64,000 bases of DNA from Ceratodon purpureus (Eukaryota > Streptophyta > Bryopsida > Pseudoditrichales > Ditrichaceae): positions 7,127,778 to 7,191,777 of the forward strand of contig CM026431.1 in the NCBI GenBank assembly GCA_014871385.1. Reading direction: 5' to 3'. A program made the position numbers and the translations under genes. Every line of letters starts with the position of its first letter. The stretch's first letter is position 1. Of this stretch, positions 35,042 to 58,280 are shown piece by piece. Below the pieces are notes generated by a model. That model was given only the letters and a program-made list of their open reading frames with translations. It was not told the DNA's origin and did not search any database.

Positions 35042-35046
35042 TGTGG

Positions 35047-39142: not shown

Positions 39143-39793
39143 ATGATTGCGAGAATAGGAAGCTTTACGTCCACAGCCATGGAGAACTGCGACTTCATCG
39201 AGTATGACCTCTACAAGGAAGGGGTGAAGAGCAAGTTTTGGTCGAAAATGCCGCTTGCAATACACGATACCATAGCGTGTGCAGGTGAATCTTCAAGGTA
39301 TCGCATTGGTATGAACCTTCTGGAAGAAGAACGGTTGCTGAGTTCCATTCCTCAACATGAGAGAGTGGATCTTTTCTCCAAGAGCACTGGATCCTTTCTC
39401 GAGGAGCTCGGCGATGACCTCGTCCTAACAGTGCTGTGGCCGAAGCTTATGGACGGCAATACGAAGGTGGGCAACTTCCAAACGTGTTGCCTTCTTCGGT
39501 GCGTATGTTCGGGTTGGAAAACGTATGTGGAGGACCGTGCGAAATGGCAGAAGGGTCTCCTATCTTGGTCCGCGGGAGATCACCGCAGTTGGCAAGAGCT
39601 TCCTGCAGACTACATGGAGCGCTTACAGAGGAGAGGTGAAAACGAAACATCTGAGTCCCGGAACACAACTGAAGAAGAAGGGGACATACATGCATCCTCG
39701 GATGAAGCTGAAGAAGAAGGGGACAAACATGCATCCTCGGATGAAGCTGAAGAAGAGTCGTCACCTCCAGAAGATGATATGAGTGACATGTAG
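39143..39793 (+). CDS. F-box-like protein with acidic repeat tail
   Basis: The frame is 216 codons from ATG (MIARIGSFTSTAMENCDFIE). Residues about 84-130 read FLEELGDDLVLTVLWPKLMD, then LLRCVCSGWKTYVEDRAKW, which fits the F-box pattern of a Leu-rich first helix and an LR-VC--W--yV ending. F-box proteins bring substrates to SCF ubiquitin ligases; that role is inferred. The C-terminus carries a 39-bp repeat encoding EEEGD(I/K)HASSDEA, present two to three times and strongly acidic. There is no substrate-binding repeat domain after the F-box, so the protein is short for the family or is missing exons. It ends 225 bp left of the hAT element. Confidence 0.5.
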   Translation: MIARIGSFTSTAMENCDFIEYDLYKEGVKSKFWSKMPLAIHDTIACAGESSRYRIGMNLLEEERLLSSIPQHERVDLFSKSTGSFLEELGDDLVLTVLWPKLMDGNTKVGNFQTCCLLRCVCSGWKTYVEDRAKWQKGLLSWSAGDHRSWQELPADYMERLQRRGENETSESRNTTEEEGDIHASSDEAEEEGDKHASSDEAEEESSPPEDDMSDM

Positions 39794-40018
39794 TTCTGTA
39801 AGAGCGTTGCACACTCAGCAGTCGTGCTCGTTTCGTCAACATACTTCGAGAGTAATTGTACCGTCACTTTCACATGAATTGAAAGACCTTTCATCTACTT
39901 GTCCATGTTCCTCTCGAAAAAAACGTGATCACAGTATAAAATTTGAAATTGCGAACTCACACATACATCAACCCTAAATCCGAACGATTGCTGATTAGTT
40001 GATGAGCAACTAATTAGA

Positions 40019-40500
40019 CAGGGTTGTCACGGTCGTCCGGGACGCTCGGGACGTGGGGACGTCCGCGGATGTCCGCCAGCGCCAGGGGACGTCCTGTGAC
40101 TTAGAAAAAAAAATCACCCGCATAGGTTTCACCCCGGGGTGAAACCACATCTTCTACGCGGCGGAGGGGTTCCGGGGGAGGGTGCGGCCGTCGCCGCGGA
40201 GCGGGGGGGGCCGTTGGACGCGTCGGGAAGGGGCCGTCCCCGGCGACAGCCCCTTGCCGTCACCGCGGTGGGGGGGGCCGTCCCCGGCAACGGCCCCTTG
40301 CCGTCGCCGCGGTGGGGGGGGGCCGTCCCCGGCGACGGCCCCTTGCCGTCGCCGCGGTGGGGGGGGCCGTCCCCGGCGACGGCCCCTTGCCGTCGCCGCG
40401 GTGGGGGGGGCCGTCCCCGGCGAGGGCCCCTTGGACGGCCGTGACAGTCCATGATCGGACGGCCCCTCGTTGACTTACGGCCTCGACGGCCGTCCTTTGT
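40019..40500 (+). repeat. Left hAT end and GC-rich promoter array 1
   Basis: After the terminal CAGGGTTGT come several GGGACGT/GACGTCCG subterminal copies. From about 40165 to 40450 there is a tandem array of roughly 57-bp units built on GGCCGTCCCCGGCGACGGCC and GCCGCGGTGGGGG. TATAAAAG follows at 40541-40548. A short upstream frame opens at the ATG at 40632 (18 codons), ahead of the transposase ATG. Confidence 0.75.
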
Positions 40501-40752
40501 TGATTTTTAGGGCTTACCCCTTGGCATTTCATGGAATGAGTATAAAAGACCCCTCCTGAAAGTTGCCATTACACTTCTGAATTGTACTCCATGTGCTACT
40601 AGTTGCACTAATATACGTGTGTATCTGTTGCATGGTGAACGGCGGCGTTCAGAAGTGTGTTGAATTGGAGCTTCTTCGGAGGCTCTAGTTCTCTTGAGGA
40701 CGTGGTACCCCGATTTTTTGAAGTTTTTCCGGGCGATCTATCAAGTGCACCA

Positions 40753-43320
40753 ATGGCGTCTAAAAGTTACTCCCCATGGTATACCGAAGTCCATATGATC
40801 GATGCGGAGAAGAAGAAGACTGAGATGGTTCAATGTATGCTATGCAAGAACACTTTCGCAAAGAGGATTGAGCGGATGCTCAGTCATTTGGGCTATGACA
40901 AAGTTCTAGGGGTACGGACTAGTGGAGTAGGTCGTTGCACTAATTTGTCACCCGCTATATTGTCCTTGTTCAAGAATTGCGGTGGCAAATTCCCTAACGA
41001 CTCCAGAATATTCATGTCGGAGCAGAGTACTTCCCCGGTGACTCGTGGCAATATATCCCCGAGAGTGAACACTCCCATGGATGTGGACTCATGCGCTGGA
41101 TCCCGGGTTTCTACTCCGAAGAATGAACCCGTTTTATTTGGTGAGGGTGTACCTTTCATTTCCACTTTTCCGGGGGAAGGTAGTGGACCGTTTCCTCCTT
41201 TGAAGGCAAAGAGGCAATCTACCCTTCAAGAGGGCTTCGAAGAGACTCAGAGGCGGGAATGCGACAAAGCATGGGCCACATGTTTTTACGAGAACAGTAT
41301 CTCGTTTAACGTGGCTCAGAGTGCCTCTTTCAAGGACGCGGTGTTGAAGACGTCCAACATGAAGAGATCATACACACCTCCATCTTACCACCATCTCCGA
41401 ACAAATTTACTAGCCCAAGCAAGGACTGATTTGGAGACTTCCTTGAATGATAGGATTTTTTCAAGTGTTAGGAAGTACGGGGGAACGTTGGCCCTGGATG
41501 GGTGGACTTCTGTAAGCAGTCGCCCTCTAATAAACGCAATGCTGGTATCTCCAGCTGGTGAGTTATTCTTGGGAGCCGTTGACACGAGTGGGAAAGAGAA
41601 GGATGCTGTTTTCGTAGCAACCGTCATTGAGAAGTTTATCCAACAAGTTGGAGAACAGAACATCATTCAAGTATGCTACGATAATGCTCCGGTGATGCTT
41701 AATGCCGGAAAGTTGGTCCAAGCACTCTATCCATCCATATTTGTCCAAGGATGTGCTGCCCATGCGATGGACCTTTTGTTGGAGGATTGGAGTAAGATGA
41801 AGTGGGTGAAGGAGCTCCTAGATCGGGCTAAGAACTTGGTTAAGTTTATAAAGATAAGGCAAATGCCACTCTCGATATTTCGAAAGCACGAGGCAAAACT
41901 TAGCTTGCTGATGCCCGGTCAGACTAGGTTTGCATCGCACTACATTATGATTTCGCGTCTACTGAAGGTTCGAGGAGCATTGGAGCAGAGCGTTGTGGAT
42001 CCTGACTGGAGAAACTACGAAACGAAGAAGACCTTATCTGCCCGTGACAAAGCGAAGATCTCACGCGATGTTAAGAGGGTTGTCTTGGATGACGTTTTCT
42101 GGGAGCAATGTGCAAACTTCAAGTGGATGACGAGTCCCGTTGTATATGCCCTACGAGAGTTTGATGCGAAGGAATCGGCATTGGGTAAAGCCTACGTCGT
42201 TCTCCGCAACCTTGAGAAGCATGTTCTCTCTTTACGCCATGAGCCCTTCAAACTAGACTCAGACAATGCTGATTACTGCGAGGACTCATTTTACGAGCGT
42301 AAAGCCATGATTAAATCACCCTTACAGTGTGCTGCTGCGCTTCTAAACCCTTATCTTATTGACGATGAGGACCTTCGCAATGATACTGATGCAATGGCAT
42401 CGGCGAAGGAGGTCTTGTTGTCGATGGCTCCTCCGACACTGAAGGAAGTGGTCATAGAAGAGTTCTTTGCATTTCGTGAAGCTTATCCTTCGTTTCGTGA
42501 CGTACGTGAATCCTCTAAGTCACAACTGCCGCCTTCTGGTTGGTGGGATATATACGGATCCGCTGGTAAATTCATTTCCCCAATTGCAAAAAGGATTTTA
42601 GCTCAGCCCCTGTCTTCTTCTTCATGCGAGCGGAATTGGAGTAGCTACTCCTTTGTCCACGACAGGAAGCGAAACCGTTTACTTCCGGAGAGGGCTAATG
42701 ACCTCGTGTTTGTGTATACAAATTTCAAGATAATTTCCCAGTCCAAGTTGAGTGCCTTAGGCAGGTTCTACGGGGAGTTGGAGGGGAAGGAGGATCCGAA
42801 GGCCGTGGAAACCGAGGATGTTGACTACTCTAGTGAGTCTGATGTTGATCTACCCTTCGATGATCTATCAATTGACCCCCCCATCGAGGCCCCAGTCGAC
42901 GACCTCGAGGTGTCTCCGAAAGGAAAATCCCGTTGTTCTCCTGCGCCAATGGAGCGTGCTTTCGAGTATGATGATGTCGAAGAAGAAGGTACCAACGAGG
43001 AGGATACGATTCATCTTTCCTCTTTTTTGAATGGAGACGGTTTATTAAACAGTGATAAGATTCTCCGGGGAGGATCCTCTCATACTACCGTGGATTTGGT
43101 CATACCAAAGAAAGAGGGAGACCCCACCATTGATACTTCTAAGGTTGTTTCTCCAAACTTCAACCGCCTGAAGGACGATATGGTTCCACCCACTACAAAG
43201 GAGGATGTGCCCGTACCCGTATCGGGTGCATCTCGCACATTGTTTGGAACTGCAAAGACTAGGGTCCAAGTTGGTGGGTTCGAATCGTCCACGAGGTTGG
43301 TTGAGTTGTCTAAAAAATGA
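40753..43320 (+). CDS. hAT transposase
   Basis: An intronless 855-codon frame from ATG (MASKSYSPWYTEVHM). Residues 9-46 are a BED-type zinc finger (C28-x2-C31, H45). The DUF659/RNase H-like core has the first catalytic Asp in LALDGW (D249), the second in VCYDNAP (D310), and the hAT-typical CAAH at 334-337. Residues about 597-655 form the C-terminal dimerisation domain (WWDIYGSAGKFISPIAKRIL, CERNWSSYSFVHDRKRNRLL). A long acidic extension follows (about residues 680-855), unusual for the family. It cuts and joins DNA at element ends. An ATG further upstream would give only an 18-codon upstream frame, so 40753 is the start chosen. The stop TGA overlaps the ATG of the next frame. Confidence 0.93.
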   Translation: MASKSYSPWYTEVHMIDAEKKKTEMVQCMLCKNTFAKRIERMLSHLGYDKVLGVRTSGVGRCTNLSPAILSLFKNCGGKFPNDSRIFMSEQSTSPVTRGNISPRVNTPMDVDSCAGSRVSTPKNEPVLFGEGVPFISTFPGEGSGPFPPLKAKRQSTLQEGFEETQRRECDKAWATCFYENSISFNVAQSASFKDAVLKTSNMKRSYTPPSYHHLRTNLLAQARTDLETSLNDRIFSSVRKYGGTLALDGWTSVSSRPLINAMLVSPAGELFLGAVDTSGKEKDAVFVATVIEKFIQQVGEQNIIQVCYDNAPVMLNAGKLVQALYPSIFVQGCAAHAMDLLLEDWSKMKWVKELLDRAKNLVKFIKIRQMPLSIFRKHEAKLSLLMPGQTRFASHYIMISRLLKVRGALEQSVVDPDWRNYETKKTLSARDKAKISRDVKRVVLDDVFWEQCANFKWMTSPVVYALREFDAKESALGKAYVVLRNLEKHVLSLRHEPFKLDSDNADYCEDSFYERKAMIKSPLQCAAALLNPYLIDDEDLRNDTDAMASAKEVLLSMAPPTLKEVVIEEFFAFREAYPSFRDVRESSKSQLPPSGWWDIYGSAGKFISPIAKRILAQPLSSSSCERNWSSYSFVHDRKRNRLLPERANDLVFVYTNFKIISQSKLSALGRFYGELEGKEDPKAVETEDVDYSSESDVDLPFDDLSIDPPIEAPVDDLEVSPKGKSRCSPAPMERAFEYDDVEEEGTNEEDTIHLSSFLNGDGLLNSDKILRGGSSHTTVDLVIPKKEGDPTIDTSKVVSPNFNRLKDDMVPPTTKEDVPVPVSGASRTLFGTAKTRVQVGGFESSTRLVELSKK

Positions 43321-43736
43321 AGGCAGATGCTAAGGCTGCTGAAGTAGCGGAGAAATGTAGGAAGAGATTGGTCCGAACCCGACAAGCGGACCCGGGCCTC
43401 CTCTCTACTGATGACGGACTTCCAATTGGCAATCTCTTTGGGCCGAAGTTGGCTTTGGGAAAACCGGACATATTTCCTGAGAAACCCCCTGCTAGAGCCA
43501 CGTCCAAGCGAAAGGCTGTAGACAAGACTCAGAAGGTGTTGGCTTTCAATCCTGGGAGGCCAAAAACTCCTTTGGATGACCCGAATGGCCCAAAGAAATT
43601 CCTGAACCCATTCGAGTCAAAGAAGAAGACTAAGGCAAGGGTGAAGAAGGTACGCGAGAGCGATGGCGATGACGAATACGATTCTTCCGGTCCTAGTGGG
43701 GCCGAAGTGAAGGACGACAGCGATTATGTGGCCTGA
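43317..43736 (+). CDS. Basic C-terminal ORF overlapping the hAT transposase (ATGA)
   Basis: A 139-codon frame starts at ATG 43317, overlapping the transposase stop by four bases (ATGA) in the -1 frame. The product is Lys/Arg/Pro-rich (RKRLVRTRQADPG, SKRKAVDKTQK, KKKTKARVKKV) with an acidic end. A TAA two codons upstream closes this frame, so it is reached only by its own ATG or by slipping on the A6 run just before the stop. Single-base loss in that run is the simplest explanation, making this the natural C-terminus of the transposase. Confidence 0.55.
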   Translation: MKADAKAAEVAEKCRKRLVRTRQADPGLLSTDDGLPIGNLFGPKLALGKPDIFPEKPPARATSKRKAVDKTQKVLAFNPGRPKTPLDDPNGPKKFLNPFESKKKTKARVKKVRESDGDDEYDSSGPSGAEVKDDSDYVA

Positions 43737-44196
43737 TTGGGCACGGTAGTTAGAAGGCGGCATTTCCAGTGCACCACCCTAGAATGCCACTCTTTTATGA
43801 ATGTCCATTTCTAGAAACCATTATCATATTATATTTCATTTAAGCGGTGGTGCTTGCCTCTTCAATATTGTCCTCCACGTTGTGTACTTATTTTTACTTT
43901 GATTGTACTTCTCGCAATTTCTTTCTCGTAATGAATGTACACAATCTACATATGAAGTTCGATGCATCTAAGTACTAACAATTCTTTCAACACAAATGCA
44001 ACTCGGATAAAACATAAATGAAATTGTATTAAAACCAAAGGTAATTTTTGCAAGTACATATAGAAGTAGTGTAAAGTCCATACACCCGGCTCCGCAACCA
44101 ATATATATATATACTGCTCTAAATACGACTATCACCCAGTGTATTGTCACATTAACCGTAGTAATGCGGGTACCATGTCCAACGTAAATACTCTAC
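43737..44196. other. Convergent 3' ends of hAT genes 1 and 2
   Basis: AT-rich 460-bp gap between two converging genes. AATGAA-like and TTTATT strings on both strands could serve polyadenylation. A short (AT)n lies near 44100. Nothing else is seen. Confidence 0.4.
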
Positions 44197-44856
44197 TCAA
44201 CGTCCATTGTTTGCATTTGACCTCCGAGTTTGGCGTCGCTGGCTTGGATGTGTAATCGTACCCCCCGATCGATATTCTTCTTCCACGCGATCCAAAGAAC
44301 GACGATTATCTTCCCCCCATTCGGGATCATCTTCATAAGGGTTGTCTCGATTGCGCTTCTTGGAATTCTTCCCGTTCCACAACTCCTTTGCCTTCTCAAT
44401 CTTGGCTACTGTTTCTTGCACAATCTTCTCAATCCTATTGCATGACCAACGAGAGGAATTATCCTCCGCACGAAGTGCCCTCCTCCAGTCGTTAACTATT
44501 TTCTGAAGAGCATCGTCAAACTTCTTAGTGATCACCCAGTAGCATAGGTCCGAATATTTGAAGGATTCCTCTGTAAAAGTGCGACGATGCTGAATGGCTT
44601 CTTCTAGTTTGGCCAATACAAGTGCCCTCCCAACCGGGGTTCTGTCATACATCTTGTACTCATAAAGTTGGCCATAGTCCCGTTCTACTTCTCTTCTCTT
44701 ACCGTCGGCATCTACCACAACTTCCGGTTTTGGAAACCGGAAGAAGCGATTGCCATGTATACTCCAATGTCCACCGAAGTTCCTACAAAAAAATTCTCGG
44801 TCCTTGGCATCCGGAATTTCACGTGCCCTCATCTCCACCTCATAGTCGTGTGTCAT
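44197..44856 (-). CDS. C-terminal ORF of hAT gene 2, basic, ATGA overlap
   Basis: A 219-codon frame (MTHDYEVEMRAREIPDAKDR) whose ATG overlaps the stop of the RING frame by four bases (ATGA, -1 frame). A TAA lies nine codons upstream in this frame. The protein is charged, with WSIHGNRFFRFPKPEVVVDADGK-type sequence in its first third and a strongly basic, Asn/Arg-rich tail. I recognise no domain. Given the same arrangement at the transposase gene, it is either a separate product made after reinitiation or the displaced C-terminus of the RING protein. Confidence 0.55.
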   Translation of the reverse strand: MTHDYEVEMRAREIPDAKDREFFCRNFGGHWSIHGNRFFRFPKPEVVVDADGKRREVERDYGQLYEYKMYDRTPVGRALVLAKLEEAIQHRRTFTEESFKYSDLCYWVITKKFDDALQKIVNDWRRALRAEDNSSRWSCNRIEKIVQETVAKIEKAKELWNGKNSKKRNRDNPYEDDPEWGEDNRRSLDRVEEEYRSGGTITHPSQRRQTRRSNANNGR

Positions 44857-47366
44857 CCATGATAATCGTCCATTCCGGCATCGTTAGCCGTAGATAGTTG
44901 GTGAGTCATTGTCTCCGGGTTCCAAGCCAGTGATTTGCCCCAATCATAATAATTCAGCTCTTTCTTAGGTAGTTGGTCTAGTGGTAAATTCCACCGATCA
45001 AGCTCATGCCCAGGCGGCATCACGTGTTGTAGTCCCAGCATCTCGTAAAAACGTGAACTAATTGGGGAGCGACACATAACACATTGTTTGTTGTTTAAAG
45101 CAGCCTTCGCGATGCAGGTTATGTGGAACTTGTGATTACAATTTCCCATCTCAAAGGCCCCTTCCGGCCCAAAATATTGTTGACAGATGGGACACGTTTC
45201 CTTCAAATATTCCTCCGACGGTTTGCGGGTATGGATAACCACACGTTTCGATTCATCCAAATGAGATGATAGTACATCGTACGGCATCCACCCCTCCTCG
45301 ACCTCTAGCGCCCAGTCAATGACCCCTTCTTTATTTTTGGAACTATGTAATGTGCGCTCCATCATTTCTCCTACATTGCGCCATATCGTGATTTTTGTAG
45401 CATCCTTGCCGCCCTTGGCTGCTGCCTCGTTATACTTCTGTAAAGATGATTGGATAGCTTCTTCGACATCCATGGAAGTAATTGCACATTTCTTCATATC
45501 CTGTTGTGCTCTAGAGACTATTGTCTCCTTATCTCGTAGTTTGTGGATCCAACCAAGCCATGATAATGCCCTTATGGAAGATGGTGTATCATCTACCATC
45601 TGTATGGTGGTCTTCAGCTTTTCCAGTTCCGTACGGGCCTCGTCTCTTTCCCTTCTAGCCACCTCCAAATCCCGTAAAAGAATGTCTAATTCCTTTGAAT
45701 CATCCATTGGCCCTTTTCCTCTATCCTCATGTCGTGGTGTTGCTTGGCTAGAGCCAATGTCTAATGGAACTGGACCAGATGTCATTTTAGACTTCTGAGA
45801 CGCCATCCCTTGTGTGGCCCCATCTCCACTTTTATTTGAAAATTTAGAAAGGCCAAGGTCATCGGAATCCTCACCATCGCTCAGTACTTCAATGATACGA
45901 TCCTTTCCTTCCACCTTCACCACTTCCTTCTTCACCGCAGGCTTCACTTCTTTTATTTTGTTTTTCTCCTTAACTATCGGGTGGAATTTTTCGCACTCTT
46001 CCAATTGTGCACTCCAATTCATCTTCACTATGTCCAAGCTTTTTTTCAAACTCTTGATTAGTTGCGTTGCCTCCATTAAATCCTTACTCAGGGCCACGTT
46101 CTCTTCGCCTAATTTCACACGGTCTTCCAGAAGAGGCTTAATGGAAGATGCCAAAGTGTCAAAGCCAAGGGCTCCCTGTATCATGCCCGGAGTGATACTT
46201 CCAAATGCATGAGCCATATTTATGAGATCTGGTGCCATAGCGCCTAATACGGAAGCCCCTTCTTTCAGGGTGTGTGCAATCTTCAACACATTATGAATTT
46301 GTTGCACTTCCTCCGTGGTTTTTCCTACAGCGTCTCCCTCTGTGGTATTCTCTAAGCCCCCACGCTGTTCATCAGAGGACACCTCCGTCAATTTGATGCT
46401 AAAATCTAGTAACTCCTTCAATGATTCGTTGTTTGGCATCGACTTCACCAGCTCCATAATCTCCAAAATGGAATGAACTGCATCCTTTGTGCTATCCTCT
46501 TCGGTAGGCACTTGTACTATTGCCAAGGAACTTGGACCATCATCCACTGAACGAGGGTTGGAGCATCCGGCTTCCGCAGCCGTAAGATGTGTTGAGCAGT
46601 CATTGTCCACCTCCACTTCCACCTCATCTACGGCTGCCTTGCCCTTTGTATCGTTGGAAGATTTCACCGTGATTCCCAGGTCTGCTCTAGGAATAGTAGG
46701 GACATTAGTTTCTGTGGCAACGGGGAACATCGTAGCGATCACATTGGCAATGGCAACGGGCTTCTTTTCCTCTGGACGATGCGGAGTTTCATTCTGTAAT
46801 TTTTTTACTTCATTCTTCAGAAAGCTCTTTAGATGTGGCCACTGCCGCTTTCGGAACTCCGCTACGACCTTCTTTGCTTCCAAAGGATCGATCAGATATA
46901 AATCCGGAATGTCTCTTACCATCCATCCAATTTTCAACGGCCTGTCTTTCGTAGTGGGGTACGTACACCAACTAATCTTCCGCTTCAATATTAGCTCCGC
47001 ATATACCATACTGCAAATGGTATAATTGAAATGGCCTTTGCTGGGCTTCCGTTGCCCAAACATAGTAGTCCAGACTTCATATGCCCGATGCAAGAAATGG
47101 TCATCCATGCATGACCAGGGCTTGCAACTAAAAGTCCGTGTGTTCATCTCGTGTTCTTCTCGGGGCCACAACTTGTCAATGTGATACATCTTCACATACT
47201 TCTTGCACTCCTTGAAAGTCCAGAAAATCTCCCCTACAGATTCCCAGCCTTCTTCTGCTACAATGTTTTTGTTGTCTAGGATCTCCCAAGAAAAGTTGTG
47301 GCACATTCCCTTCGGCCTGTTCCTCTTCCCGGTTCCTCCAATCTCATCATGTTCCGGATCCGCCAT
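44853..47366 (-). CDS. RING-H2 protein carried by the hAT element
   Basis: An intronless 837-codon frame from ATG (MADPEHDEIGGTGKRNRPKG). Residues about 30-135 form a Trp/Tyr-rich domain (GWESVGEIFWTFKECKKYVKM, ICSMVYAELILKRKISW) shared with hAT gene 3. The middle is helical and acidic, with coiled-coil segments (LEVARRERDEARTELEKLKT). The C-terminus has a RING-H2 finger: C725, C728, C743, H745, H748, C751, C762, C765, spacing C-x2-C-x14-C-x-H-x2-H-x2-C-x10-C-x2-C. Such fingers usually act as ubiquitin ligases, which is inferred. The start codon is followed by no better ATG, and an upstream GC array (47590-48150) and G-run fit a promoter and leader. Its role in transposition is unknown. Confidence 0.85.
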   Translation of the reverse strand: MADPEHDEIGGTGKRNRPKGMCHNFSWEILDNKNIVAEEGWESVGEIFWTFKECKKYVKMYHIDKLWPREEHEMNTRTFSCKPWSCMDDHFLHRAYEVWTTMFGQRKPSKGHFNYTICSMVYAELILKRKISWCTYPTTKDRPLKIGWMVRDIPDLYLIDPLEAKKVVAEFRKRQWPHLKSFLKNEVKKLQNETPHRPEEKKPVAIANVIATMFPVATETNVPTIPRADLGITVKSSNDTKGKAAVDEVEVEVDNDCSTHLTAAEAGCSNPRSVDDGPSSLAIVQVPTEEDSTKDAVHSILEIMELVKSMPNNESLKELLDFSIKLTEVSSDEQRGGLENTTEGDAVGKTTEEVQQIHNVLKIAHTLKEGASVLGAMAPDLINMAHAFGSITPGMIQGALGFDTLASSIKPLLEDRVKLGEENVALSKDLMEATQLIKSLKKSLDIVKMNWSAQLEECEKFHPIVKEKNKIKEVKPAVKKEVVKVEGKDRIIEVLSDGEDSDDLGLSKFSNKSGDGATQGMASQKSKMTSGPVPLDIGSSQATPRHEDRGKGPMDDSKELDILLRDLEVARRERDEARTELEKLKTTIQMVDDTPSSIRALSWLGWIHKLRDKETIVSRAQQDMKKCAITSMDVEEAIQSSLQKYNEAAAKGGKDATKITIWRNVGEMMERTLHSSKNKEGVIDWALEVEEGWMPYDVLSSHLDESKRVVIHTRKPSEEYLKETCPICQQYFGPEGAFEMGNCNHKFHITCIAKAALNNKQCVMCRSPISSRFYEMLGLQHVMPPGHELDRWNLPLDQLPKKELNYYDWGKSLAWNPETMTHQLSTANDAGMDDYHG

Positions 47367-47589
47367 AGTAACCTCGTTTTAAACAAAAACGATATGGTTT
47401 TGTTTTAAAGAAAACAAGGAGTTGATAAATGACGTTTACAAAATAACGAATACAGAAAATTCAAAAACTCCCCCCCCCACAATAAAAAGGGACCCCCATC
47501 TCCTCACCCCCACGTACCAACAAGCTCCCAAGTGAATTGGGAAACTGTAGCAATAGGAGAGGGACTATTGAGGAGAGTGAAGTGAGGAA

Positions 47590-48150
47590 GTGGGGGACGG
47601 CCGTCGCCATATATGGCGACGGCCCCCAACCCTACGGCCGTCCCCCCGAGCCTAGTGCCGTCGCCCCCCGATCCTACGGCCGCGGCCAATGGCCGTCGTC
47701 CCGAACCTGACGACGGCCGTTGGGGGACGTCGGGTCGGGGGCCACGGCGACGGCCGCGGAGGCCCGTGCCTCCGCGGCCGTCCGATCGGGCCATGTCCTC
47801 GGCGACGGCCGTCCGATGAAGGCCATCGCCGAGGGGACGGCCTTGGAGACGGCCTCCGAGGGGGCGGCTTGCGGCCCTCCGATCGCGGCCGTCCCCGCGG
47901 CCGTCGCCGTCCGATGGCGGCCGACCGCGCGGGGACGGCCGCGGGGACGGCCTTGGAGACGGCCGCGGGGACGGCACCGTCGGCGACAGCCCGCGGCCGT
48001 CCGATCGGGGCCGTCTCCAAGGCGACGGCCGTTCGATCACGGCCGCGATCGAAGGGCCGTCCCCGCGGACGGGCCCTCGCGGAGACGGCCCACGGCCGTG
48101 GAAACGGCCCCCGACCGTGGGGACGAGGCCGTCGCGGCCGCGGGAAATTT
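47590..48150 (-). repeat. GC-rich promoter array 2
   Basis: Irregular tandem GGGACGGCC, CCGTCCGAT and GGCCGCGGGGACGGCC units, about 80 percent G+C, lying 225 bp upstream of the RING gene start on the minus strand. CCATATATGG near 47608-47617 is a possible TATA element. Several long frames on both strands are artefacts of the repeat. Confidence 0.7.
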
Positions 48151-50880
48151 CCCTCCCCCTTTTTTAAAATACAAATGAAAAGAACATATAATGCTACATC
48201 TTCCGACCACATATTACACTAAACCTGTTAATTTCTTTCACCAATTAAAATGAGAACAGCAGTTAATGTAAACATGAATTAAAATACTTCATGGTATGCA
48301 AAGCATCTAAATTCTTCAACGAGTCATTATTCCGTACGCTCCACTGAAGTTAATGTATGTGTCATTTATTCGAATCATTATTTCTGTTGTTTCTATCGTA
48401 CGCATTTCAAGGTGGTCTATCATCGCACTCCAGAAGTTCCTTGCAGAAATCGAACTCATCTAAACTTGTTTCAGAAATTGTAATCTAAATAGTTCTCCGT
48501 CTTCTTATTCTCCGCTTTGAATTTTTGTTTTTTTAAATACATAAGTGCTTCTATTATACTTTCATTAAACGGCTTCATATTCTCAATTTAATTCGAGTTA
48601 CCATCTCTTTATGTACTTTTAACGTTCCTCCCTCTATACAATTTCCACTTTCGAATATTGTTTTCATTTACCTCTTCTTTATTTTCCTCTATGTTTATTC
48701 CCCTCTAGTTTATGCCCTTTTTTTAACGTCTAATTTGTCTAATTTAGAACTCCAACCCTCGAAGCTCCATAAATGTCATTTCGTGAATTTCTTCCTTTCA
48801 TATCGTTTTGAACGTTCGTATTTCGATTTATTTCCTCCATGACCCATGTTAAAGTATATTTTACTAATTCGACCACTATTCCACCATTTTACTAATTCTA
48901 CCCTACTGCTTTAGTTTTGAATTATATTCTACTAGATGTACCCTACTGCTTTAGTTTTTATTGAGTACTGTACCCCTCTTTCATATATACGTTTTCAACT
49001 CTCCATGTATCACTACATCATGGCCGACTTCTATTTCTTGTGATAATTATAATTTCGATACTTTCCCTCTCAAACTATTCTTTATTCGTCTATTATTTTG
49101 ATGGTTCACTCATCTGTTTACTTATGAATATACTTCTACTTCACAGCTTTCCCCAAGTGTATCGATACGTTATTTCTTAATATTACACCCGTCGTCATTA
49201 TAGTTCTAATATTCATATCCGTCCTCAAACCTCTTGTTCTTTGTGTTGTTCATTAATTTAATTAATTACTATTCCGAAACAATACCACCCTACTAAACAT
49301 CGTTCATCAGTATTTTTAGTATTCCAATAATATATATATATATATATTTCTAAAATTATGTCCCGTCAATATACGTTTTCGTGTAATAATTTTATTTCCG
49401 TACTTGTAGCTCCAAGTATTTCACGTCGTGACTTTTTAATTTTTCCTTGGTACAGTATAGTCTATGTGTCTCTATGAATTATTGTGCTTGTTAAATTCTC
49501 CCATTGTGTCATTAGTAAGTGATTACTTTTGTACGTATGTACTATACATTGTACAAGTTAGAATCCAATTCCATATTTATATTTACGTTAAAGTGTATAT
49601 GAATAAACATATATTTGTATAGTGTATAATGTAAATGTGTTACCTAATTTATTTATTTTATTTCATATAAGTTGCAAGGTACAACTCAATTCTGGGCGTT
49701 GGAAACTAGAATTGTTTATAAAAACAATGATTTCAATTTTAGTCGTTCACAAATTGGCATTATTCAGTGACGGTTGAATGTTTTCTGTTTTAATTTTGTT
49801 TTTTACTATTATCCCTTCCTCATCTCATAATGTGAGCTAGTGATTTTTTATTTATTTTTAATGATAACACAGTACTACGGTATGGAAGTTTGTAAAATAA
49901 AAGACATTAAAGAGCAAGGAGAGTTTTTATATTTCATATAACTCTAAACCAGGCATGAGAAATTAGAATTGGACCATTTGTTATGAAAACAATGATTTGA
50001 GTTTTATTCCTCCCATGAATTGCATAATCCCAAGAGAATTGAATGTTTGTTTTGGTTTTTTTCACTTTATTATTATCTCCAGTTTCTCTCATAATCTAAA
50101 CTACTATTTATGTTTTTATTTTTGATTCTACCATAATACTAAAGAACGAGAGTATGTAAAATTAAAGAAATAAAACTGGGGTAAATCATTCCATTAAAAA
50201 TTAGAGTCAAAGAATCTATATAAATATTTTCATTGTATACCACTATTCGAGAAGAAATTGGATCTATATTTCTAAGAGATTTATGAAACCGTAAACCGGT
50301 GAAATATAAATGCAAATCTCTTAACCATTTAAACGTAAGGTGCACCGCATGAAAAACCAAGTGTGTACATCAATTTATGCGTTGAATTACTTCTAGTGCA
50401 TTCTCTCCGCGATGTTCCTCTTATCATATTGTTGTTGACATTTACTCTTTTGATTCGTTAGTATAAAATGTTAATTCATTACCGTATGCTAAAACATGAG
50501 TAACTTCGTTTCTTTAAATGACAATTGGTAAACACTGTTTTAGTGTACCCACAATGTTTACGGTTCTTTCCATTCAATAGGATATATATTCTTCTTCATA
50601 AACGTGTTCACATTATTTGTAGATCCTAGGGGGTTATCCACCCCCAAAGAACCAAAATATCACATAGTTCATTGGATCCCAATTTCAAACGTCGACCCCA
50701 CCTCCCCGATCACAAGATCTTCAGGACATTCCCCACAATATCCGGGATATGTCTGAATTTTCCATTTGTAGGAGATATGCTGTCCAAACAATCCCAAGTG
50801 GGATTGTTTGGGACAAGAAGGAGGGGGGAGAGTAGGGGAGGAGAGGGGGGAGGAGAGGAGAGAAAACACAAGGGGAGGGG
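48151..50880. other. AT-rich non-coding core of the hAT element
   Basis: This 2.7-kb stretch between the two gene pairs has no credible gene. It holds T-rich tracts, an (AT)n run near 49330 and two diverged copies of an ATTGTTTATAAAAACAATGATTT-like region (about 49710 and 49975). Base composition contrasts sharply with the flanking arrays. Confidence 0.5.
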
Positions 50881-51590
50881 AGTTCCTTCGACCCTCCCCC
50901 CCCCCCCCCCCCCCCCCCCGGCCGTCCCCGGGGACGGCCACGGCCGACCCCGCGTGGACGGCCGTCGCCCACGGCCGTCAGATCTTCTCCGACGAGAAGA
51001 TCCTACGGCTGCGGACGACGGCCGTCCCCGCGTGGACGGCCTTGGCCGACACCGCGGTCGCAGCCCCCCGACCCCGGGGTCGGCCGCAGCCGTCCCCGCG
51101 GGGTCGGACGAGGCCGTCCCCGGGGACGGCCACGGCCGACCCCGCGGTCGGAAGGTCCGTCCGCGTGGACGGCCCTGGCCGACCGCGGGGTGGAGCACGG
51201 CCGTCCCCGCGGGGTCGGACAAGGCCGTCCCCGCGGGGTTGAGCACGGCCGTCCCCGGGGACGGCCACGGCCCACCCCGCGGTCGGAAGGGCCGTCCGCG
51301 TGGTCGGCCGTGGCCGACCACGCCGCTGCAGCCTCCGACCGCGGGGTGGAGCACGGCCGTCCCCGCGGTGGGCCACGGCCGACCCCGGGGACGCCCGTCG
51401 ACGTGGTCGGCCGTCCCGACCGCGGGGCGGCGGTCCACCGACGCACCCTTTGGGGAGCGGTCGCGGCCGCACGACCGGTCGCGGCCGCGATCGTGGACGG
51501 CCGCGACCGCTCCCGCGACGGACCAGTTACGGCCGTTGGATTCTCCATTCCCCGAGATCCAACGGCCGTAGGGGGGCCGTCGTTTGACCT
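50881..51590 (+). repeat. GC-rich promoter array 3
   Basis: A C-homopolymer of about 35 bases at 50885-50920 is followed by tandem GGCCGTCCCCG, GGCCACGGCCGACCCCGCG and GTCGGA units to about 51590, upstream of hAT gene 3 (ATG 51969). CATAAATG at 51619-51626 is a weak TATA candidate. The long frames on both strands here are repeat artefacts. Confidence 0.7.
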
Positions 51591-51968
51591 AACTGGCTGC
51601 CTAGGGGTTCGGGCCAGCATAAATGGGTGGCCCTTCTTCCTTTTTTTTCACTTGGGTGCTCGTGCTACATGTGCTGGATTTACTTCAGCTCAGTTGCGTT
51701 CCTCCAAGCTTTTACTACTTCCCCACGGGTTATCGTGGGATTGTGTTTAGGGTTGTCAGCACCGTTTGTTGGTTATTATGAAACCAACAATATAGTGCTT
51801 CATACGTACGGTTTTTTGGCAGGAGTTCTCGGTTTTGTTTTAGTCCTTATGCACTAGATATATACGAGATTAAATCAACTTTTATACGGTGGGGAGAAGT
51901 TACAGGCATTGTTACGAGGTTGGTTCAATACACGGTATTCACAGCTACTCGCTTACCGGACTTTCGCC

Positions 51969-52331
51969 ATGCCTCGTAACGACAGGGGAGGACCCTCCAC
52001 TCCTAAAAGGAAACACCCCTTGAATCCATACGCTACGAATGACCCTGATTGTGTAGCAGAGATTGGATGGGAGGGGGAACCATCACCATGGCGGATGGTA
52101 ACTTGCAAGGAATATGTCAAGATGAAGCACCTCATGAAGTTGATCCCAGTACATCTACGTACCGAGGCTGCGGAGAAACAAGCAACACGAGGAGAGATCA
52201 GGATCGACAATTGTGAAAGTAATCATTTCAAAATTCGATACAACGAGGTTTTTCGAGCAGCACGAATCCAGAACTCCCGACCTCATATCATGTTGTATTC
52301 GAATATGCGGCAATGGTGTGGGCGGAGATAG
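51969..52331 (+). CDS. hAT gene 3, N-terminal ORF, paralogue of RING-gene N-domain
   Basis: A 120-codon frame from ATG (MPRNDRGGPSTPKRKHPLNP). It matches the N-terminal domain of the RING protein: VAEIGWEGEPSPWRMVTCKE with EYVKMKHLMKL against VAEEGWES and KYVKMYHIDKL, then HFKIRYNEVF against HFLHRAYEVW. Similarity then jumps to the overlapping frame below, so the gene changes frame between about 52240 and 52290. A G-GTT-TTT heptamer lies at 52247-52253 in this interval. An ATG further upstream in the same frame does not exist; the non-ATG extension to 51909 is unsupported. Confidence 0.6.
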   Translation: MPRNDRGGPSTPKRKHPLNPYATNDPDCVAEIGWEGEPSPWRMVTCKEYVKMKHLMKLIPVHLRTEAAEKQATRGEIRIDNCESNHFKIRYNEVFRAARIQNSRPHIMLYSNMRQWCGRR

Positions 52332-53473
52332 TCTTACACAAGAGGGTTGACTGGACCACAGTCTCGGGCCTGAGGACAGATAGAATGAACAGAGACAGCA
52401 TGGATCTTGTAACAGACTGGAGTGGACATAGCGATTGTCCCCCATTACATATTTCAAACCGTCGGAGTCCACCGGCACAAGATGCAGGAATACAAACTCT
52501 AGCCATCGAATATAATGATGAGGAACAGGAGAGACGTCGTTTAAGCTATGATGATGAAGACAACTATCGAGGGCGTCGCTCAAACGAAAATCCCAGGAAT
52601 CGCAGAGGGCATCGTGCCAGAGAGTCATCACGTACCAACCATGAGGAGTATGGACAAAGCTCTGCCCACGGGGGACACCGTTCGCTAGATCGTCAGGACA
52701 TGGGACCCCACGAACAAGGCTATGGCCACGGGGAACCGGAAGGAGCTGATTTACCCTTTGACTTTGCGGATGGTGCGTATGGACCCTATGGGGGACGACC
52801 GTGGCCAGATTATGCAACGGGATCAAGATACTTTAGTAACTATGACGACGGCTGGTCGGAAATACCGAGTCCTCCAAGGAGTGCTAGTCCGCGCCATCGA
52901 ACACCTCCGAGAGAGGTACCTCACGGTTATTCCCCAGATCGCGAAGAAGATACGCAGAGACTGGGACGTGATGATTACGCAACTCCCCCTCCATACCGCG
53001 GATATGGTGGTCATGGTACCCCATCTGCCCTATTTGCAGAAGATGATTACAGATCATCTTCGCGGACTCCGCCTGGAATATTTCCTCCACCTCTAGGTTA
53101 TCACACCGACGGTACTGATCACAATAGCGGGGACAACCGCAACGTACTTCATCGCGATGACAGAGTACCACCTCCTCCTTTTGGATACCCTCCCGGTCGA
53201 GTTGTAAGAGATAGCTATTTTGAGGAAGAACTAGAGTTGGAGCGAACAAGGCAAAATTACGTACTACAGATGGAGAATCATGCGTTTCACCTTAGACGGG
53301 ATAATCGAAGATTGATGGAGGAGAGAGAGAGACTTCTGAGAGCCTCCACAAATTCTGCAAGGCACGGGCCACAAGAAACGTACGATCGGGGAGGTCCAAG
53401 CGAACTCCCCAATGATGGGAACTATTATCATCCATATGACTACAATGGGTTAGGGTGGAGGGGAGACTATTAG
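52313..53473 (+). CDS. hAT gene 3, C-terminal ORF, Arg/Asp/Pro/Tyr-rich with coiled coil
   Basis: Frame of 386 codons in the -1 frame relative to the preceding ORF. Its first residues, with those just upstream (FEYAAMVWAEIVLHKRVDW), continue the domain shared with the RING protein (FNYTICSMVYAELILKRKISW). The rest is low-complexity and charged (RGRRSNENPRNRRGHRARES, YGPYGGRPW, SPPRSASPRHRTPP), and a C-terminal coiled coil (EEELELERTRQNYVLQMENH, RRLMEERERLL) may allow dimerisation. There is no RING finger. A DNA- or RNA-binding accessory factor is a guess. Confidence 0.6.
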   Translation: MVWAEIVLHKRVDWTTVSGLRTDRMNRDSMDLVTDWSGHSDCPPLHISNRRSPPAQDAGIQTLAIEYNDEEQERRRLSYDDEDNYRGRRSNENPRNRRGHRARESSRTNHEEYGQSSAHGGHRSLDRQDMGPHEQGYGHGEPEGADLPFDFADGAYGPYGGRPWPDYATGSRYFSNYDDGWSEIPSPPRSASPRHRTPPREVPHGYSPDREEDTQRLGRDDYATPPPYRGYGGHGTPSALFAEDDYRSSSRTPPGIFPPPLGYHTDGTDHNSGDNRNVLHRDDRVPPPPFGYPPGRVVRDSYFEEELELERTRQNYVLQMENHAFHLRRDNRRLMEERERLLRASTNSARHGPQETYDRGGPSELPNDGNYYHPYDYNGLGWRGDY

Positions 53474-54423
53474 AATGGGGTGCATGGTAGTACTTTCTAC
53501 AGCATCGGAGCGTACCGAGACTTTAATGTGGACTTCGCATATTACAAATTTACAACGGAAAGTAAAAGATGCAAGCATAGTATGTACGTAGTTTGCAGTT
53601 TTGTAGATGGAGGTTTAAAATGTACGGACTCAAGAATACTGGCACGTGCCACATTTTGCAAGTAGAATAGATATAATTAGTGTTTTAGAGTGTAGTTGTG
53701 TTGTCTTTTATATTGTAGTTGTCTTCACATTTGAAAGGAATTTACCTTTTTAATATTCTTGTAGCCGTATTCGAAGTGCACATTACTATCAATATCACTA
53801 TTTTTAAAATGACAACTTCCTATTGACATGGGTTACGAGTCTACGACTTACGAGCACTAGAATATAATGAATCTCAAGACAAGTATGCAAAATAATTTTC
53901 AATTATTTTTTTGGCTAAATTAATAAGAATATCGTGAATGATATTTTTTGATGGATGCATATTTATATCTAAGGTATTTGTTTGTACAGGGGATTATGAG
54001 CAATCATGTTTTGCGGCCCTTACGCTTTCGTCTTCACGAAAAGAACTTCAGTATACGCTTGCCAATATTTGTAAGAATAAAAATTACAAAGCATAACGGT
54101 TACAATTCACATATCGCATCATTTTCATAATTAGAATTGAGAGTATCGACTTTTAGCTAGATGTGTGGAGCCAATCCGTTTTCCTCATAATACAAGGGGT
54201 AGAAATAGACCAATCTTAGTACAGAGACCATATTTGAACCAAATGCAAGTAAACTTTATAAACAAAATATTGACCGGTGTACAAAAATTGAGATTCCAAC
54301 ATCTCATAATAATATAGAGTGTAAATATGACTATTCACTACTAAGAGCTATGCCCGCCGTCCGGTAACAAAAAAAACATTATGCTTTTATAGGAATACGG
54401 AAAGGTAGATATGTAACTCCATA
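53474..54423. other. Convergent 3' ends of hAT genes 3 and 4
   Basis: AT-rich gap of 950 bp between converging genes with no credible ORF. Short AATAAGAATA and TATAATGAAT strings could be part of 3' ends on either strand. Confidence 0.4.
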
Positions 54424-55173
54424 TCAGTAACCCTCGCGATAGTGCTCGATGGGAGTGGGCCAGTTGTGTGTATCTCTGAAACGGTTAATAAGATGTCCGA
54501 GTCCACCAATCGTTCCTCTGTTGTTTTGGCAAACTCTCTCAAGGTAACCTTCGAAAACCATTGCGAGTTCTCCGATATTCTGGAAATGGCGTGTTTCTAC
54601 TGGCTCGGCTTCGTGGTATGCCGTGCACATGTTGCCCCTGTTGATCTTCGCCGCTATCTTCGCAGCTGCGAAATCCTCCGATGCAACCGTCAAATCTGGA
54701 ATGATTTGAATATCTTGGTTTTCCTTGTGTACGTATACCACGCGAGGATCCACCCAGTATCGCCTCCTCATAGTCTCCTCCTTCTGATGGACACTCTCAA
54801 AAACCCAAGGCGACCTTCTGTTCTCTAGTGTCTTCGTCATCAAGCCCCAATCACAAACCCCGATGTAGATCTTGGACTCATCTTCCGGAAAGTGAAGTAG
54901 GATGTTGTCTGGTGACAAGTCATTGTGGAGGTAACCGTATTTGTGTACGGCATCTATGATGTTACACAATGCCCAAGCAAGCTCTGTACGCTTACTTTGG
55001 AAAAGTTGGAGACGCTTCCCTAGAATCGGACTGTCGTCTGCATTCTCTCTGAAGATGTAGTCGATGGGGAGGTCACCCGGGGCCTCGTTGTCTCTCTGTA
55101 GCATGGCTCGAAGGGTCCCACCGTTCCACCAGAACATGTTCCAACTGATGAATGGCCTGGAAGCGGATGACAC
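54424..55173 (-). CDS. hAT gene 4, C-terminal ORF: kinase C-lobe
   Basis: The frame runs to a TGA-type stop near 54424 and is open from before 55173; no ATG marks its upstream limit. It continues the kinase of the next entry in the +1 frame: hinge-like WNGGTLRAML, catalytic loop YLHNDLSPDNILL (coordinates about 54900-54930, HRD replaced by HND), and the metal-binding DFG site as CDWG (about 54845-54860). The catalytic Asp and Asn are kept. A Trp/Tyr-rich C-terminal tail follows. Protein phosphorylation is inferred. Confidence 0.65.
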   Translation of the reverse strand: MSSASRPFISWNMFWWNGGTLRAMLQRDNEAPGDLPIDYIFRENADDSPILGKRLQLFQSKRTELAWALCNIIDAVHKYGYLHNDLSPDNILLHFPEDESKIYIGVCDWGLMTKTLENRRSPWVFESVHQKEETMRRRYWVDPRVVYVHKENQDIQIIPDLTVASEDFAAAKIAAKINRGNMCTAYHEAEPVETRHFQNIGELAMVFEGYLERVCQNNRGTIGGLGHLINRFRDTHNWPTPIEHYREGY

Positions 55174-55888
55174 CAGGATGGGGAATCCTTATCGCAAGAG
55201 ATTCATTGTTGTGGTCCACACGTGCCAAATCCAGCCTCATAGACCAATTGAGCGGCCGTTTCTCAGCAAACTCCCAGTACGGTGGGATTTCCGGGTTTCC
55301 CTCGATACGAACCCTACGTATGGTAGCATAACCACCTCTTTGGACTTCCTTGTCCAAGTAATAGAAAATTGCAAAGTCTGCCAAGATAGTCAAATGCCGT
55401 TTACGTAAGTCAGCCGCCGTCTCCATCCCAATCGGAGAATTCCACCAAGTAATAGACGCCCGTCGATGCTTTCTTGAGCTATGGGGCGCCATTAGTCTCG
55501 TGAAGCAATCTGCCTTTGCAATAGTATCCTTGAAGGCCTGGACTCCCCCCCTTTGCGCCTTTGCATACTTAGTAATAACCTCTTTAGCATTCCATAACGC
55601 ATCGTGTGCACGTTGTGACACAAAATGATCGTAACCGGGCTTCTGTGTATCCGAATGCGAGCACGGATCCATCAAACGATTCCTAATCTTTGTCTCCATC
55701 TCTGACTTGAATTTCCTGGGCCCATCTTCCTCATACCGAACGTAACGACTATTCAATGAAACAAGGGTATTCTCCTGGTAAAATTCCACGATGAATGCCA
55801 CAATATAATCCTTGCAACGTAAGCTCGGCATGTCATCGAATTTGTTCGCCCATTCCCCCACATTCTTCTGCTTCTTATTCTTCGGCAT
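55073..55888 (-). CDS. hAT gene 4, N-terminal ORF: kinase N-lobe
   Basis: A 271-codon frame from ATG (MPKNKKQKNVGEWANKFDDM). About 170 residues of unrecognised sequence precede a kinase N-lobe: Gly-loop-like VQRGGYATIRRV, a beta-3 lysine candidate in EFAEKRP, and IPHPGVIRF matching the family's HPNIVRL. The kinase hinge lies in the overlapping +1 frame, so the gene changes frame near 55105-55130. GC-rich array 4 and a C-run (plus strand, 56022-56040) lie upstream. A kinase inside a hAT element is unexpected; it may be captured host sequence. Confidence 0.7.
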   Translation of the reverse strand: MPKNKKQKNVGEWANKFDDMPSLRCKDYIVAFIVEFYQENTLVSLNSRYVRYEEDGPRKFKSEMETKIRNRLMDPCSHSDTQKPGYDHFVSQRAHDALWNAKEVITKYAKAQRGGVQAFKDTIAKADCFTRLMAPHSSRKHRRASITWWNSPIGMETAADLRKRHLTILADFAIFYYLDKEVQRGGYATIRRVRIEGNPEIPPYWEFAEKRPLNWSMRLDLARVDHNNESLAIRIPHPGVIRFQAIHQLEHVLVERWDPSSHATERQRGPG

Positions 55889-56159
55889 CGTGGAAAGCCT
55901 TCAAGGCTTCAAGAAATCGTAACCGCAACTCCAAAGAAACCCTCAATTCCCACAATGATTAATAAGAGCAATACAAATCCAAAGGGTTTTGAAAAAAACC
56001 GTTTAAAAATTCGAAAAGTCCCCCCCCCCCCCCCCCCCCCAAATGAAGGACCCCTTTCCTCCCGGTGAGAACGACCAACAGAGAAGGATCAAGTCCCCCA
56101 CCAGTAGCAATCAGCCTCACTCGAAAAGGGAGAAAAAAGGTAAAAAATGAAGAGGCGGC

Positions 56160-57033
56160 TTCCCCTTATATAGGGGAAGCCGACCTCGCGGCCGTCCCCA
56201 CGGCCGTCCCCACGGCCGTCCCCGCGGCCGTCCGATCTACGCCCCCGCGGCCGTCCGATCGGGCGCGACTCCGCCCGAAGGCGCCGGCCGTCCGATCGGA
56301 CGGCCGCGTCGGGCGATGGCGCCGCGTGGCCGTCCGACCGACGCGGCCGTCTCCGCGGTCGGCCCCGTCTGCACGCGGTCGGCCACGCGGACGGCCGTGT
56401 CTCCCCGCGGTCGCCCACGCGGACGGCCGGGGGATCGGACGGCCCTCCGCGGCGGCCATGGTCGGCCGCGGAGGGCCGTCCGATCCAGTGGCCGTCCCCG
56501 CGGCCGACCGCGGAGACGGCCGCCCGATCGGACGGCCCACCCAGGCCGACCATGGCTGCCGCGGGCCGTCCGATCCCGCGGCCGTCGCCGTTGCCGACCG
56601 CGGGGACGGCCACGGGGACGGCCGCGGGATCGGACGGCCCGCGGTCGGCCGCGCCGATCGAGCGGTCCCCGATGGCCTGCGCCGGGATCGATCCAGGCCG
56701 TGGGATCCGACGGCCCTGGAGGGCCGCCCACATCCGACGGCCCGCGATGTGCCAGCACGGCCGCATCTTGGCCGTCGGATCGACGTGCGGCCGTCCGCAA
56801 CGACCCCGCGGCCGTCTCCGCGGCCGTCCCCGCGAACGGACGGCCGAGATGAGGCGTGGTGGCGGGATCGGCCGATCGGACGGCTGGGGAATGTTTTTAC
56901 CCCTCCGGGGTCGCAAAATTATTACCGCGGCGTAATTCTCGAGCGTCGGGGACGCCACGTCCGGGACGGGGGACGTCCGGGTCGGACGTCTTGACGTCCG
57001 GAGCCGGGTCGGACGTCTATTTGAACAACCCTG
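56160..57033 (-). repeat. GC-rich promoter array 4 and right hAT end
   Basis: Tandem GGCCGTCC, CCGATCGGACGG and GCGGCCGAC units run from about 56185 to 56880. TATATAAG on the minus strand (56165-56172) stands between them and hAT gene 4. From 56935 the sequence changes to GACGTCCGG-type subterminal repeats matching those of the left end, closing with ACAACCCTG. Long open frames here on both strands are repeat artefacts. Confidence 0.75.
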
Positions 57034-57039
57034 TAAATA

Positions 57040-57264
57040 GACCATGTTTTCCTAGTTGACGCTGAAGTTTACCCCCTGTACAGGGACACCAATGATCCAC
57101 ATCTCGGAGTCGTCATCGTCGCTTGGGAACTCAACATAGGCGGCGTGTTATGCAGACCATTGGTAGAAGTCAAGAAACGGGCATTGGACTACAGTTTGAG
57201 TAGGGGATACGAGGAACCGGCGGTTAAGAGGACATCTCAGACAACAATATTTTTTGGAGAGTAG
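57040..57264 (+). CDS. Exon-like segment directly right of the hAT insertion
   Basis: Beginning inside the target duplication, the frame GAC-CAT-GTT encodes DHVFLVDAEVYPLYRDTNDP, then HLGVVIVAWELNIGG, VLCRPLVEVKKRALDY, and ends at TAG 57262-57264. Composition looks like real protein, yet a TAA precedes it and there is no usable ATG. In the uninterrupted target the sequence would read CTAATTAG then ACCATG, so a splice acceptor may lie within the target site. I do not recognise the protein. Confidence 0.3.
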   Translation, partial: DHVFLVDAEVYPLYRDTNDPHLGVVIVAWELNIGGVLCRPLVEVKKRALDYSLSRGYEEPAVKRTSQTTIFFGE

Positions 57265-58280
57265 AAACTAACAGTGGAAGTCGATAGAATTCTTTGAACG
57301 TTAATGTGTATTTAGGAGGCACTTAGAACACCATATATTCCAAAGATTTGAGCACAATATTTTAAGTTCTTCAAATAATTGAAAGTTTGAAATTATAAAT
57401 GAAAGATTAAAAATCATAAATGGAAGATCAAAAATCATGAATGGAAGATCGAAAATCATAAATGGAAGATCAAAAATCATAAATGGAAGATCAAAAATTA
57501 TTTATGGAAAATTAAAAATTATATATAAATACTTGGTCAGACAAACCAAATATCTAAAGATGATTTTTAAAAATCCAAAAATGAAAATTAAAAATCCAAA
57601 ATGAAAATTGAAGATCTAAAAATGAAAATTGAAGATCCAAAATGAAAAAAAAAATCAACAATTCTTCCCCCCCAATGAGGACTTTCCACGTACGCAGTTC
57701 CAAGCAAGGCGTGTTTTCACACGTCAGGACAAGGAGCCGCTGTGAAAAGGAGTGTGGGGGGCAAGAGAGTCTAAACACAAATTATAGTGAGTGGAAGTTG
57801 CAGAAGGTCGCGCCCCCTTTGAACCCGCGCGCGCCTCTCCTATACCCGTCACCCCCCCCCTCCCCCCCCCCAAGCCTGTTTGCCCCCTCCTAACCCGCTC
57901 GGACCGTTGAACCCGCTCGCGCCCCCCCTTGTCACGTTCGCGCCCCTCTAAACCCGCTCGCGCATCTCCGCCAACAAAAAGAAGTAAAGAATGTACTAAG
58001 CTGACAATTTTATAATTTTCCAAAAAAGCATTGAACACAGGTTCTCTAATTTTTGAATAAAATATGCTAAAAAATATTCAAGGGTTTTGAATATGATATC
58101 ATTATTAATTCTTTAAAATCCTTAACTACTTCTTACAAAAACACTTCAAAACTATTGTTTCTATTGCAAAAGAAAAGTTTGGACAAACAAATGAAACATT
58201 CCACCATGGATTGTAAATTATTCGAGTAGACTACAAGAAAACTTTGAAGTATTTTCTTACAATATAAATTTAAATAGACT
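57265..58280. repeat. Short AT-rich and C-rich minisatellites
   Basis: An AAATGGAAGATCAAAAATCAT unit repeats about five times at 57410-57510, then an AATCCAAAAATGAAAATT-like series to 57650. At 57800-57970 a C-rich stretch contains repeated AACCCGCTCGCGCC units and C-runs. No gene is seen. Confidence 0.6.

Follow-up and report, generated by a model that had tools for sequence, protein, structure and literature searches.

A probable 17-kb hAT transposon with a transposase gene and three accessory genes, each preceded by its own GC-rich motif array

Introduction

Can a unit of 17 kb with four genes be a single hAT transposon, and what could the GC-rich arrays in front of its genes do? Most described hAT elements encode a transposase alone and are usually simple one-gene transposons. 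A preliminary description of a stretch of Ceratodon purpureus DNA had proposed a four-gene hAT element, and the whole stretch of 64,000 nucleotides (the window, to which all positions refer) was analysed to follow up this proposal. The locus is read here as one hAT transposon at 40019-57033 that carries a transposase and three accessory genes, a reading that we consider rather probable and for which a scheme of array-based control is proposed. New in this analysis is the finding that each of the genes stands behind a GGCCGTC/GACGGCC array of its own, with a TATA-like sequence nearby (Table 1).

A second element protein beside the transposase is found in En/Spm (CACTA), with TnpA, and in Mutator, with MURB; TnpA acts via motif arrays. 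These transposons belong to other superfamilies and have other proteins, and their arrays lie near the ends, whereas those described here lie before each gene. No multi-gene hAT with the present gene set was found in the open-access literature by searches that were partly very narrow, and novelty is therefore stated cautiously.

Table 1. Features of the element, in order of position. Motif counts refer to GGCCGTC/GACGGCC; array limits were set by eye.
Feature	Position	Strand	Details
Left target duplication TAATTAGA	40011-40018		7/8 identity with right copy
Left terminal inverted repeat CAGGGTTGT	40019-40027	+	
Left subterminal region	40028-40118		two GACGTC (40058, 40088)
Array 1, upstream of transposase gene	40160-40500	+	12 motifs, shuffle mean 0.44; tandem unit 44 bp
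TATA-like sequence of transposase gene, TATAAAAG	40541-40548	+	inspection
hAT transposase, 855 codons	40753-43320	+	DUF659 5.6e-36, Dimer_Tnp_hAT 2.6e-10
Transposase tail continuation, other frame, 140 codons	43314-43736	+	break at A6 run
RING-H2 gene, C-terminal part, other frame	44197-44883	-	
RING-H2 protein, 837 codons	44853-47366	-	zf-RING_2 1.4e-7; N-terminal domain common with gene 3
RING-H2 finger	45069-45197	-	residues 728-770 of 841-aa frame; C3H2C3 positions by inspection
26-bp perfect palindrome centred on CCATATATGG	47599-47624	-	TATA-like, gene-side edge of array 2
Array 2, upstream of RING-H2 gene	47590-48145	-	23 motifs, shuffle mean 0.68
Spacer between gene pairs	48146-50904		largely AT-rich, no nested element recognised
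Array 3, upstream of gene 3	50905-51600	+	20 motifs, shuffle mean 1.0
TATA-like sequence of gene 3, CATAAATG	51618-51625	+	inspection
Gene 3, N-terminal part	51969-52331	+	paralogous to RING-H2 protein N-terminus; RING not found
Gene 3 continuation, other frame	52223-53473	+	first part colinear with RING-H2 N-terminal domain
Kinase C-lobe	54424-55188	-	Pkinase 9.9e-6, below curated cut-off; HND..N and DWG motifs by inspection
Kinase gene, N-terminal part, other frame	55073-55888	-	glycine-loop-like and lysine motifs by inspection only
TATATAA of kinase gene	56166-56172	-	between 9-bp inverted arms 56157-56181, inspection
Array 4, upstream of kinase gene	56180-56890	-	28 motifs, shuffle mean 1.07
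Right subterminal region	56934-57024		four GACGTC
Right terminal inverted repeat CAGGGTTGT	57025-57033	-	
Right target duplication TAAATAGA	57034-57041		

Ends of the element

The span first given for the element, 40011-57041, located its ends correctly but takes in the target duplication, so that the element itself extends from 40019 to 57033. The matching ends claimed for it consist of the 9-bp sequence CAGGGTTGT, of which the window holds exactly two perfect occurrences, both at the element ends and inward-facing; in shuffled sequence the mean was 0.49 per window, and at least two matches were obtained in 9 of 100 shuffles. Target duplications of 8 bp, identical at seven positions as described earlier, adjoin these ends (TAATTAGA versus TAAATAGA, one mismatch). 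A search for inverted 9-bp ends that match exactly, with a flanking identity of at least 7/8 and a spacing of 500-25,000 bp, returned 19 pairs: 15 join GC arrays and are repeat artefacts, three lie elsewhere and one is the 40019/57033 pair, the only one of the 19 that starts with CA. In 20 local shuffles 0-6 pairs of whatever sort turned up, and a further 20 gave no CA-starting pair.

The subterminal repeats said to be common to both ends could likewise be recovered. Two GACGTC lie in the outermost 100 bp on the left and four in those on the right; shuffles gave a mean of 0.43 and a largest count of four, and none of 2000 reached six. Only three further copies lie in the 16.8 kb between the ends, so that the outer 200 bp hold 6 of the 9 GACGTC of the element. 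When the flanks were joined as an empty site, no long open frame crossed the junction, the left and right flanks were without similarity to each other, and a Pfam scan of eight flanking frames gave no match at E up to 0.01.

Transposase gene and superfamily

The transposase gene carries DUF659 and, above the cut-off, the hAT dimerisation domain (PF05699), in agreement with the hAT transposase of the preliminary description. A zf-BED match, for the N-terminal zinc finger of hAT transposases, stays below the cut-off (E 0.061). The alignment to the Hermes transposase is weak (E 0.024) and spans the region of the catalytic Glu; in this weak match the Glu of SSCERNWS and the Asp of LDGWT align to Hermes residues, as putative members of the catalytic Asp, Asp, Glu set of an RNase-H-like core, the Asp stretch alone not being significant, and a second Asp (YDNAP) was assigned by inspection only. 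Among the three Pfam families matched at E up to 1 there was no MULE family, and the protein does not qualify as a MULE transposase.

The dimerisation domain, the short inverted ends starting with CA and the 8-bp duplication (7/8) are hAT traits, and we would class the element as a hAT whose multi-gene layout is unusual. DUF659-type hAT elements resemble it in the combination of DUF659 with the dimerisation domain, in short inverted ends, in the 8-bp duplication and in subterminal repeats, but the present element differs from them in its length of 17 kb and its three accessory genes. No transposase relatives were confirmed by a scan of viral and prokaryotic contigs or by tblastn against plasmids, non-plant collections that carry little weight here. 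Separate scans of viral contigs confirmed no relatives of the RING protein or of the kinase C-lobe.

Accessory genes

The RING-H2 protein announced earlier is present, with a zf-RING_2 finger (Table 1). Gene 3 had been called its RING-domain paralogue, of which the paralogy holds for the N-terminal part and the RING does not: gene 3 gave zero Pfam families at E up to 1 and is accordingly described as a gene without RING. The N-terminal part of the RING-H2 protein matches gene 3 in two colinear parts on either side of the gene-3 frame break, with Z scores of 11.1 and 6.1 (200 shuffles), and these gene-3 parts are its two best matches among the 36 protein pairs compared. Tblastn of the RING-H2 protein versus gene 3 gave an E of 6e-5. 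At the level of sequence, these comparisons show common descent of the two N-termini. Their common domain is without a match in Pfam, and its structure model for the RING-H2 protein has a low mean pLDDT of 34.8.

The fourth gene was introduced as a protein kinase, and a kinase-like gene is indeed there, its Pkinase match lying under Pfam's curated cut-off. The closest solved relative of the C-lobe is STK38 (5.2e-4), and HND and DWG replace HRD and DFG. For the N-terminal part neither Pfam nor PDB yielded a match at E up to 1, and its structure model is of low confidence (mean pLDDT 36.3). A domain common to all three accessory proteins was considered and is unsupported, since the kinase N-terminus showed no relation to the RING/gene-3 domain: it scored -1.6 bits against an HMM built from RING and gene 3, versus 6.5 bits for the best of 2000 shuffles, with pairwise Z scores of 0.1 and 0.4. 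The joined kinase was not reported with the RING and gene-3 HMM, and hhalign returned a probability of 0.1. A W..CK.Y spacing like that of the RING/gene-3 domain can be seen in the kinase N-terminus on visual inspection.

Frame breaks

In each of the four genes a single break separates two overlapping frames, which are otherwise long and open. After training on the transposase and the RING gene, a codon model rated the annotated frame best of the three forward frames in all six other segments, but in the second part of gene 3 by a bare margin (-0.006 versus -0.057, an antisense frame scoring 0.041). Introns seem unlikely as the source of the breaks, as by eye no canonical intron would fit the RING break and homology continues across the gene-3 break. 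Because every gene is frame-broken, the copy as assembled is probably damaged and unable to make all of its proteins whole. Possible causes are decay and an error of assembly, to which ribosomal frameshifting may be added in the case of the transposase. The transposase frame ends at TCTAAAAAATGA (43306-43320), which could be a slippery site, and the coding signal goes on in the -1 frame.

Arrays and TATA-like sequences

The proposed layout, array-gene-gene-array twice over, was confirmed as two convergent gene pairs with four arrays. A GC-rich GGCCGTC/GACGGCC array of about 0.34, 0.56, 0.70 and 0.71 kb (limits by eye) lies immediately upstream of the four genes, with motif counts far above those of 200 shuffles per array, in which the largest count was 6. 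The element holds 46 of the 47 GGCCGTC and 37 of the 40 GACGGCC of the window, and the motif density falls to 0 across all four genes, the spacer at 48146-50635 and the flanks at 35100-40010 and 57042-61000. Both orientations are about equally frequent (7/5, 12/11, 12/8 and 12/16 for arrays 1-4, in gene sense). Sharing of 6-mers beyond 100 shuffles was seen for arrays 2-4 (Z 5.6), 3-4 (Z 4.2), 2-3 (Z 3.1) and 1-2 (Z 2.8), and the 6-mer content of the pairs 1-3 (Z -0.4) and 1-4 (Z 0.1) was not above the shuffles. The observed/expected ratio of CpG is 0.98-1.30 in the arrays, 0.77-0.91 in the genes, 0.94-0.96 in the flanks and 1.09 in the spacer; since flanks and spacer are also near 1, no hypomethylation of the arrays is deduced.

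A TATA-like sequence was found by inspection near the gene-side edge of every array. TGCTAC is present in each of the four leaders, within the first 100 nt and 45-63 nt past the TATA-like sequence; any 6-mer common to these four 100-nt stretches arose in 15 of 2000 shuffle runs, TGCTAC itself having been tested after it was noticed. Over whole leaders the sharing of 6-mers is ordinary (2 versus a mean of 1.4, with 213 of 500 shuffle runs reaching 2). The RING and kinase leaders have a 23-nt block in common, a G run included (0 of 300 shuffles), and the other five leader pairs, whose values were reached by 26 to 183 of 300 shuffles, did not clearly stand out.

A single element and its alternatives

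A single element is favoured because the outer ends match, no exact end lies inside, one motif array stands before all four genes and the RING/gene-3 paralogy links the two halves. The single 17-kb hAT with four genes of the preliminary description is thereby retained as the best reading of ends, arrays and paralogy, with the correction that gene 3 is without a RING. The repeated layout and the largely AT-rich spacer of 2.7 kb that parts the halves would also suit two related elements, nested or adjacent, in which a left half (transposase and RING) and a right half (gene 3 and kinase) were joined by chance or by nested insertion, and end-like motifs with two mismatches do occur in or near the spacer (47634, 48760 and 49292 on the minus strand, 48408 on the plus strand). 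We regard such a composite as quite improbable, given that the whole-window search found no exact CAGGGTTGT inside the element and the end scan no qualifying pair apart from those between arrays, that the eight bases beside the weak internal motifs bear by eye no resemblance to the outer duplications, and that the outer ends match and have a subterminal repeat in common, with the motif array in both halves. End motifs with one mismatch lie inside the element at 42075, 44337 and 51748. A nested element in the spacer at 48.1-50.9 kb was sought and rejected, only short or 70%-alike repeats being found. It is very improbable that the ends are no true ends at all and that transposase, RING, gene 3 and kinase merely lie in unrelated DNA; the frequency with which shuffled windows hold at least two copies of CAGGGTTGT speaks for such a chance pairing, and the concordance of inverted orientation, adjoining 7/8 duplication, subterminal enrichment and arrays speaks against it.

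The accessory genes might instead be captured host genes, passengers without a role in transposition. RING-H2 proteins and kinases form large host families, which counts in favour of capture. Gene capture by plant transposons is moreover the topic of PMC13317346, in whose main text the word hAT does not occur. Against this stand the arrays, which are of the same kind before the accessory genes as before the transposase gene, the domain without Pfam match that two of the accessory proteins have in common, and frames that are long and open save for one break each, and we consider capture unlikely. A somewhat better case can be made for arrays that are GC-rich minisatellites or structural DNA to which no protein binds, for example a by-product of slippage near promoters: Tandem Repeats Finder gives tandem units within all four arrays, which are also strongly self-complementary. 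One array precedes each of the four genes, with none elsewhere in the window, and a single 7-mer core is shared despite differing repeat units, so that this explanation appears possible but rather doubtful to us.

A possible role of the arrays

For the single hAT transposon, the following scheme can be put forward. The transposase would first bind the GACGTC subterminal repeats and then cut at the CAGGGTTGT ends, and transcription of every gene would start from a separate TATA promoter close to the edge of its array. The arrays, we infer, would serve most economically as binding sites for a protein encoded by the element, which could bind GGCCGTC/GACGGCC and thereby control all four promoters jointly. 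The best candidate for array binding would be the N-terminal domain common to the RING-H2 protein and gene 3, and the binding protein may act as an activator, an autoregulator or an anti-silencer. Either the transposase or host silencing factors would be marked by the RING-H2 protein and modified by the kinase.

The nearest precedent is VANDAL21 with its protein VANC21, a likeness of working and not of membership: VANDALs are MULEs, and their proteins are unrelated to those described here. VANC21 of Arabidopsis is described as binding to arrays of densely packed motifs within its own element, in non-coding regions that lose methylation (PMC5735166). Dense motif arrays lie in the non-coding parts of the present element too, and the analogy suggests that here as well an element protein may act on the arrays. 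The VANC21 motifs have one orientation, whereas here both are about equal, and proteins and superfamily differ. The full proposal is thus a hAT with array-addressed control, in which two proteins with a new N-terminal domain, one of them RING-H2, and a kinase act on the arrays and sustain expression against host silencing, as in VANDAL/VANC elements and of independent origin. We advance it tentatively, as a reading that we would ourselves call somewhat unlikely. If it were true, an element in which matched promoter arrays precede the genes of an E3-like protein, its paralogue and a kinase would demonstrate that hATs, too, are able to build a multi-protein programme controlling their own expression. 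With defined arrays and a shared N-terminal domain, the binding idea is directly testable.

Neighbouring features in the window

No Rfam match at gathering scores and no tRNA was found. A complete and very young Gypsy retrotransposon lies at 22280-35042, with LTRs that match over 436 bp at 100% identity and, by eye, TG..CA ends and a 5-bp TGTGG duplication. Its one open frame of 3559 codons continues for about 1,480 residues past the integrase core, and this continuation, scanned as two pieces, gave no Pfam match above the curated cut-off. Remains of a CACTA element were recognised at 16158-18822 from tnp2 transposase (4.7e-61), DUF4218 (9.8e-29) and DUF4216 (6e-4, below the cut-off) in consecutive frames. 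These two elements and the DUF659 type of the hAT transposase make for a plant-like setting. A tandem array at 2674-3597 has a period of about 185 bp, shifted copies being 77-87% identical, and the very AT-rich DNA to the right of the hAT element contains a tandem pair of about 600 bp (58261-59502) with 82% identity.
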